A DNA stretch of 8,505 bases, taken from contig JALWSI010000041.1 in NCBI GenBank assembly GCA_027080315.1, positions 1 through 8,505 on the forward strand, in the 5' to 3' direction. A model generated the notes under the pieces. That model was given only the letters and a program-made list of their open reading frames with translations, was not told the origin of the DNA and ran no database searches. A program made the translations under genes and the position numbers. Of this stretch, positions 1-1,067 are shown in pieces. How positions within the stretch are numbered: the stretch's first letter is position 1; each line of letters opens with the position of its first letter. Source of the DNA: a bacterium (GTDB lineage: Bacteria; Thermosulfidibacterota; Thermosulfidibacteria; Thermosulfidibacterales; JALWSI01).

Positions 1-1067
1 GATACCACAACGTGGGTGAAGGATCCTATGGCCATTACGAATATGCAGCACCAGATGGCTATCAGTTTTGCCACATCGTTCTTTGTTGCCAGTACTAACC
101 AGGTCATGGTGGTTATTATGGCTCCTGCAAACACTGCGCTCATAAAGGTTTCCCTAAAGGGACGGGACAGCTTGAAAGCCGTAAGCTCTATGAGATGGTG
201 GGCAGGTAGGGTGCCAAGGGCGTGTTTGCCACCAAAGTAAACCAGCGCACCAAAGAGCAGAGCCCCTACCAAGTTTCCCAGAAGCGTCAAGATCCATAGC
301 TTGGCCAACGAACTCACAGGAGCTTCTCTGTCAAGCACAGGAACCACTGGTATGAGAAAGTTTTCGGTGAATAGCTCGCTTTGGGAGAGCTTTAGGAGGA
401 CGAACCCTATGGGAAAGAAGAGGGCTCCTACAAGGGAGGCCAGATGGCTACCCACGTAATGCTGAACAGCCCCTGCGGCTGCGGACATGGCCACTGCCCC
501 AAAGGTCACGTGGATGGCTCCAATAATCCCCGACATGGCCATCTCAAGCCAGGGGCGCGAAAGCCTCTTCTTACCTTTGTCCAAGGCCATAGAGAAGACC
601 GAAAGGGCGTCTTCGCCAGTGGAGGGCTCCTTCTTTATCCGATAGATGGCCTCCAGAAACATTCTGGCGTGGTTTGCCTCGTCTTCCATTATCTCGGTCA
701 GCACCTTTGAGATTGTGGGATAGGGGCATTTTCTGGCGTCTTGGCGGTAGGTGTTCACCGCCATCTCTTCCAGCACCATGTTGAGCCTCAAGAGATCCTC
801 GTCGTTCTTGAGGCCTTCCATAAGCTCAAGAATGGTCTTCTCTTCAGGGGATATACCGGCAGGCGGGGCTTTGTCCAGCTCTTTTATGCACGAGACCAGG
901 AGCTCGGCGTGATGGGCCTCTGTTGTTGCCACCAAGCGCAGAAGGAAGGCCACCTCGGGGTCGTCAACGCTGTTGGACTGCTGCCAATAGAGGCGCAGGG
1001 CCGTGCGCTCGGCCAGCAGGTTCTCTTTTAGCCTGTCAAGTAGCTCCTGGTCTGTGTAGTTCACCAC
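1..1067 (-). CDS. Ferritin-like di-iron domain fused to a formate/nitrite (FNT) family channel, C-terminus cut by window edge
   Basis: 355 residues are visible; by comparison with FocA about 70-80 (the last helix) lie beyond the window. Residues 1-145 form a soluble four-helix ferritin/rubrerythrin-like domain with all expected metal ligands: E20, E50-A-H-H53, E100 or E101 followed by Y107, and E130-A-N-H133. Residues 176-355 are an FNT channel: helices near 176-199, 207-228, 256-279, 308-328 and 333-355; the omega-loop motif S-E-L-F-T-E-N (230-236); G-N-L-V-G-A-L-L-F (264-272) as in FocA; and S-F-T-H352, matching the central His of FocA. FNT proteins are pentameric inner-membrane channels for small monovalent anions (formate, nitrite, hydrosulfide) with cytoplasmic N-termini, so the di-iron domain should face the cytoplasm. 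The substrate cannot be told; the T-H-V-V pattern recalls the YfdC branch. It starts two bases after the macro gene. GTG at 1067 or 1064 are the only nearby starts and neither has a well-spaced Shine-Dalgarno, suggesting coupled re-initiation. Confidence 0.88.
   Translation of the reverse strand, partial: MVNYTDQELLDRLKENLLAERTALRLYWQQSNSVDDPEVAFLLRLVATTEAHHAELLVSCIKELDKAPPAGISPEEKTILELMEGLKNDEDLLRLNMVLEEMAVNTYRQDARKCPYPTISKVLTEIMEDEANHARMFLEAIYRIKKEPSTGEDALSVFSMALDKGKKRLSRPWLEMAMSGIIGAIHVTFGAVAMSAAAGAVQHYVGSHLASLVGALFFPIGFVLLKLSQSELFTENFLIPVVPVLDREAPVSSLAKLWILTLLGNLVGALLFGALVYFGGKHALGTLPAHHLIELTAFKLSRPFRETFMSAVFAGAIITTMTWLVLATKNDVAKLIAIWCCIFVMAIGSFTHVVV

Follow-up and report, generated by a model that had tools for sequence, protein, structure and literature searches.

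A bacterioferritin-type domain fused to a YfdC-type FNT channel in a lineage of hot-vent bacteria

Introduction

Channels of the FNT family are pentamers with cytoplasmic termini, and their pores conduct monovalent anions and not iron. What might a ferritin-like domain do when joined to such a channel? The question is raised by a gene at one end of the window, the 8,505-nucleotide stretch of DNA analysed here. The window begins at base 1 of contig C41 and covers 8505 bases of it; the genome measures 1.84 Mb (253 contigs, 94% complete). We have asked whether the fusion is real, what its two halves are, and what their combination might achieve.

Results

A single reading frame encodes both domains

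On the minus strand, a single frame is open from end to end between positions 1067 and 3. The Pfam family Rubrerythrin (PF02915) matches residues 13-138 of the translation (E 4e-17, 63 bits against a cut-off of 22.8), and Form_Nir_trans (PF01226) matches residues 158-355 (E 7e-44, 150 bits against 34.6), placing the second half in the FNT family. A first-pass annotation of this DNA had described one unbroken frame carrying a ferritin-like domain and an FNT channel, and this is borne out. It had put the junction near position 560, which we relocate to residues ~146-154 (window ~632-606). Since the window starts at contig base 1, the gene is truncated at its 3' end. It encodes 355 of ~431 residues, the homologues having 429-431, and the missing ~76 C-terminal residues correspond to the final TM helix and a charged tail. 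There are two candidate start codons, the GTG at 1067 and the next GTG at 1064, of which the latter agrees with the homologues. The features are as follows.

3..1067, minus strand: fused gene lacking its 3' end (355 of ~431 residues), from the open reading frame, the contig end and homologue lengths
630..1052, minus strand: ferritin-like four-helix bundle, residues ~6-146, from Pfam PF02915, AlphaFold helices and VIA Z of 18-20 to Bfr/Dps folds
1008..1010, minus strand: E20, predicted ligand in helix A, from conservation and alignment with Bfr
909..920, minus strand: E50xxH53, predicted ligands in helix B, from conservation and alignment with Bfr
768..770, minus strand: E100, predicted ligand in helix C, from conservation and alignment with Bfr
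669..680, minus strand: E130xxH133, predicted ligands in helix D, from conservation and alignment with Bfr
561..629, minus strand: linker 147-153 and predicted helix 154-169 before TM1, at the position of the FNT N-terminal helix, from AlphaFold and analogy with FocA (PMC11841067)
3..596, minus strand: YfdC-type FNT channel domain, residues 158-355, with the Omega loop LFTEN at 232-236 and the S-loop H352, from Pfam, pore residues and tree, and from VIA Z of 24-29 to FNT structures for a full-length homologue

The fusion is conserved within its phylum

The first-pass annotation had suggested a search for the same architecture as a check, and the fusion does recur in separately assembled genomes. 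Nine genomes of the phylum were compared, and eight have the fused gene, counting that of the window itself and one frameshifted copy. Thus seven of the other eight carry it, six intact and one frameshifted; the single genome without it is 71% complete. Identity between the window protein and these homologues is 43-50% in the ferritin half and 70-74% in the channel half. For the closest pair, dN and dS are 0.05 and 0.86 in the ferritin half, and 0.06 and 1.06 in the channel half, so that both halves are under purifying selection.

Scanning 84,980 species genomes with peptide patterns, a method that detects close relatives only, returned six fused loci. Five encode proteins letter for letter identical to those of the phylum genomes, and the sixth, L015, corresponds to genome G004. 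This last copy is the frameshifted one. The shift lies after residue ~53, within the ferritin half (L015:6140-6180), and leaves two frames; it reflects either assembly error or decay.

The fusion was found in none of the ~670 genomes searched outside the phylum. In 377 genomes drawn from across the domain, profile matches were to one half or the other and never to both. The same was true of a large phylum represented by 296 genomes (taken to be Actinomycetota on the basis of the tree described below), where single halves alone occurred, and two small phyla also gave no fusion. Plasmids, phages and viral contigs were screened and had none. Where the DNA was accessible, long open frames at some of the FNT matches were inspected, and no ferritin domain was seen in them. 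A search of open-licence papers for an FNT-ferritin fusion found nothing, and a survey of the FNT family mentions neither fusion nor ferritin (PMC5525234).

A gene at the end of a contig, with one homologue (L015) frameshifted in its ferritin half, might raise the suspicion that assembly or annotation had united two separate genes. We regard this as extremely improbable. It is refuted by the independent assemblies, in which six further genomes have an intact frame of ~430 residues with both halves under purifying selection. Because it recurs in separately assembled genomes and selection acts on both of its halves, the fusion is not a product of chance or a chimera. It is real and conserved, and apparently lineage-specific.

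The N-terminal half resembles bacterioferritin

AlphaFold predicts four helices in the ferritin half (6-33, 37-63, 89-113 and 117-146). Mean pLDDT over 10-residue blocks is mostly 80-95, falling to 65-74 in the inter-helix segment 71-90 that connects helices B and C. The predicted bundle of the window protein matches Bfr/Dps-type structures with VIA Z of 18-20, and that of a full-length homologue superimposes on Bfr-type chains with rmsd ~1.5-2.2 A and Z of 19-20.

The seven sequences with an intact frame all have E20, E50, H53, E100, E130 and H133, as well as the flanking tyrosines Y27 and Y107. In a profile alignment the six putative ligands coincide with E23, E56, H59, E99, E132 and H135 of the Desulfovibrio bacterioferritin 1nf4, which we take to be its iron ligands, and with E16, E49, H52, E91, E124 and H127 of the mini-bacterioferritin 9qq4. 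Y27 and Y107 align with Y30 and Y106 of 1nf4. These six residues had all been in the ligand set first proposed and are upheld by their invariance and their register with bacterioferritin. That set also offered E101, which we rejected as a ligand candidate; residue 101 is E in the window and D or N elsewhere.

The four-helix bundle with its E, ExxH, E, ExxH pattern is that of the Bfr/erythrin type. The protein differs from bacterioferritin itself in that the heme-ligand Met following the helix B Glu is replaced by an invariant Ala51, and in having a membrane domain. Because the bundle is fused to that domain, a 24-mer cage is unlikely. Nor is this a classical rubrerythrin: a profile search of the fused protein for a rubredoxin domain found none, and the RuberyRbr model scored 14 bits against 200. 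Judged from sequence and model together, this half probably encodes a bacterioferritin-type di-iron four-helix bundle, with the metal site as a prediction.

The channel half is of the YfdC type

Residues of the channel were mapped with E. coli FocA as reference. At FocA positions F75, L79, L89, F90, T91, S92, T93, N172, V175, F202, E208, H209 and A212, the fused protein has F, F, L, F, T, E, N, G, I, M, T, H and V respectively; E. coli YfdC has Y, F, L, F, T, E, N, G, I, I, T, H and V. The equivalents of the pore residues T91 and H209 are kept as T234 and H352, as in FocA, NirC, HSC and LciA, with which the protein shares the FNT fold. It differs from these in the residues of the constriction and the Omega loop, and FocA, NirC and HSC have no fused domain. 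The constriction set of FocA, S92, N172, F202, E208 and A212, is replaced by E, G, M, T and V, in the complete homologues too. The FocA equivalog TIGR04060 gave 65.5 bits against 290, a score lowered by truncation of the window protein. The substitutions S92 to E, T93 to N, N172 to G, F202 to M, E208 to T and A212 to V are those described for YfdC-type proteins by Mukherjee et al. 2017 (PMC5525234).

A tree was built from 43 FNT domains. In it the fused proteins group together as a single clade (support 100/99) within the YfdC branch (100/100), and their sister group consists of stand-alone YfdC-type channels, mostly from Actinomycetota. The channel is thus a YfdC-type FNT, and the FocA-like motifs of the first-pass annotation give way to an assignment based on pore residues and tree. 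With E. coli YfdC and the YfdC-alpha and YfdC-beta groups (Mukherjee et al. 2017) it shares LFTEN, the changes N172 to G, E208 to T and A212 to V, an aromatic residue at position 79 and its tree branch. Those channels, however, have no ferritin-like domain, and their N-termini average 42-55 residues (PMC5525234), compared with roughly 170 in the fused protein.

The FNT half of the truncated window protein modelled poorly, and a full-length homologue was folded as well. Its channel matches FNT structures with Z of 24-29, those for LciA, FocA and HSC being 27-29. By sequence and fold together the best solved match is the bicarbonate channel LciA, but FocA and HSC lie within ~1-2 Z units, and we rejected this match as a clue to the substrate. 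No FNT other than the fused protein was found in the genome of the window.

Genomic context and relation to iron-exporting fusions

In the window the fused gene is directly preceded (1070-1968) by genes for a macro-domain (ADP-ribose) protein and a PII (GlnB-type) protein, with gaps of 2-5 bp, and the three probably share one transcript. The other genomes do not show this neighbourhood around their copies of the fused gene. In three of them a protein of ~180-220 residues is encoded directly upstream (L010:5284-5952, L011:1907-2455 and L014:1245-1847); a Pfam scan of one copy, that of L010, gave no match. Downstream there is a radical SAM gene in four genomes (one family) and there are glycolytic genes in L015, while in L012 an ArsP-type permease adjoins the fused gene. 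L015 also has an apparent oxygen-defence cluster upstream (L015:1-5410), with two multi-haem cytochromes, ferritin, desulfoferrodoxin, flavodoxin and flavin reductase, the fused gene lying a few kb downstream of the last four. Superoxide reductase is present in seven of the nine phylum genomes.

Because the phylum shows no conserved gene neighbourhood around the fusion, signal and substrate are without genetic support, and we rejected the neighbourhood as a guide to the substrate. Co-occurring enzymes were likewise rejected. None of the nine genomes has a formate dehydrogenase above the family cut-off (the best, in one genome, reaching 435 bits against 666). No convincing NrfA was found in the nine, and none above the cut-off in the window's genome.

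The analogy drawn at first with rubrerythrin-VIT1 (MbfA) fusions is a sound one. MbfA/Er-VIT1 proteins also have an N-terminal cytoplasmic ferritin-like domain followed by a membrane transporter and are the nearest precedent, in which the cytoplasmic ferroxidase domain is needed for iron transport (PMC7762939). By extension the domain studied here might oxidise Fe(II), with the membrane part assisting in iron export or iron balance. We think such iron detoxification improbable. The membrane part of MbfA is a VIT1 iron exporter and that of the fused protein is an FNT anion channel; VIT1 is absent, and the MbfA model NF045676 scores 17 bits against 450. Iron is also not what FNT pores carry. Moreover, the window's own genome encodes a distinct 372-residue ferritin-like/VIT1 protein (L066:1222-2340, in G000:C33), immediately behind the 3' part of feoB. 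The ferritin-FNT protein is thus the second membrane-anchored fusion of a ferritin-like domain in this cell, which makes a redundant role in iron export less likely.

Discussion

The architecture of the fused protein suggests an anion channel that iron-oxygen chemistry controls or to which it is coupled. From the end of the bundle at ~146, a short linker and the predicted helix 154-169 lead into TM1. The linker is predicted with low confidence, so that the model gives no orientation of the domains. In FocA the N-terminal helix is required for transport, is the docking site of PflB and is the presumed gate (PMC11841067; PMC5572259). Given that this helix is both docking site and presumed gate, a redox domain attached to it would be well placed to regulate the pore.

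We tentatively propose that di-iron bundles on the cytoplasmic N-terminal gate of a YfdC-type channel respond to O2, peroxide or NO by regulating its pore. In the chain the bundle lies just upstream of the N-terminal helix, and a pentamer would carry five of them at the inner mouth of the pore. On reacting with O2, peroxide or NO, the di-iron site may alter the bundle, and helix 154-169 may relay this alteration to the pore and so regulate the flow of a small monovalent anion in these vent anaerobes. Superoxide reductase in seven of the nine genomes and the oxygen-defence genes near the fusion in L015 lend some weak support from context, but the genes around the fusion elsewhere are unrelated. 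The first-pass annotation had likewise suggested that the di-iron domain could gate the channel or handle a reactive substrate or product. In its boldest form the proposal would make the protein an FNT pentamer whose pore state is set by the redox or ligand state of five ferritin-like domains, and the first anion channel to be gated through a di-iron cofactor; we consider this rather doubtful.

The main rival to gating is that the bundle is a membrane-tethered di-iron enzyme, a ferroxidase, a peroxidase or an enzyme whose substrate is the transported anion or a product of it, with an ungated channel supplying or removing the substrate. The bundle could equally be such an enzyme, and we hold this to be a serious if somewhat doubtful possibility. 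Catalytic Bfr/erythrin sites have the same symmetric Glu4His2 set, and the superoxide reductase kept by the phylum is a would-be source of peroxide. Set against this, the protein has neither a rubredoxin domain nor a conserved electron-donor neighbour, and with NrfA and formate dehydrogenase both below cut-off in the window's genome there is no obvious nitrite or formate pathway to which it might be coupled. The [FeFe] hydrogenase-rubrerythrin (PMC11926857) likewise joins a di-iron domain to another function in an anaerobe, but it is a soluble enzyme with rubredoxin centres and no channel. On balance we slightly favour a regulator over an enzyme at the inner mouth.

A bundle that serves only in structure or trafficking, for example by stabilising the pentamer or binding a partner, and whose metal site is a relic, would fit with the docking of an enzyme partner on the N-terminal region of FocA (PMC11841067). 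The six ligands are nonetheless invariant in a half with just 43-50% identity between the window protein and the homologues, and we judge this reading to be improbable.

Returning to regulation of the pore, the fusion appears to be a new combination of two well-known parts, confined as far as found to a small group of hot-vent bacteria. With a conserved di-iron domain, as predicted here, at the presumed gate, it would provide a direct test case for N-terminal gating in the FNT family and a lead on the function of YfdC-type channels. It would also add to the VIT1 iron exporters a second type of ferritin-like protein bound to the membrane.
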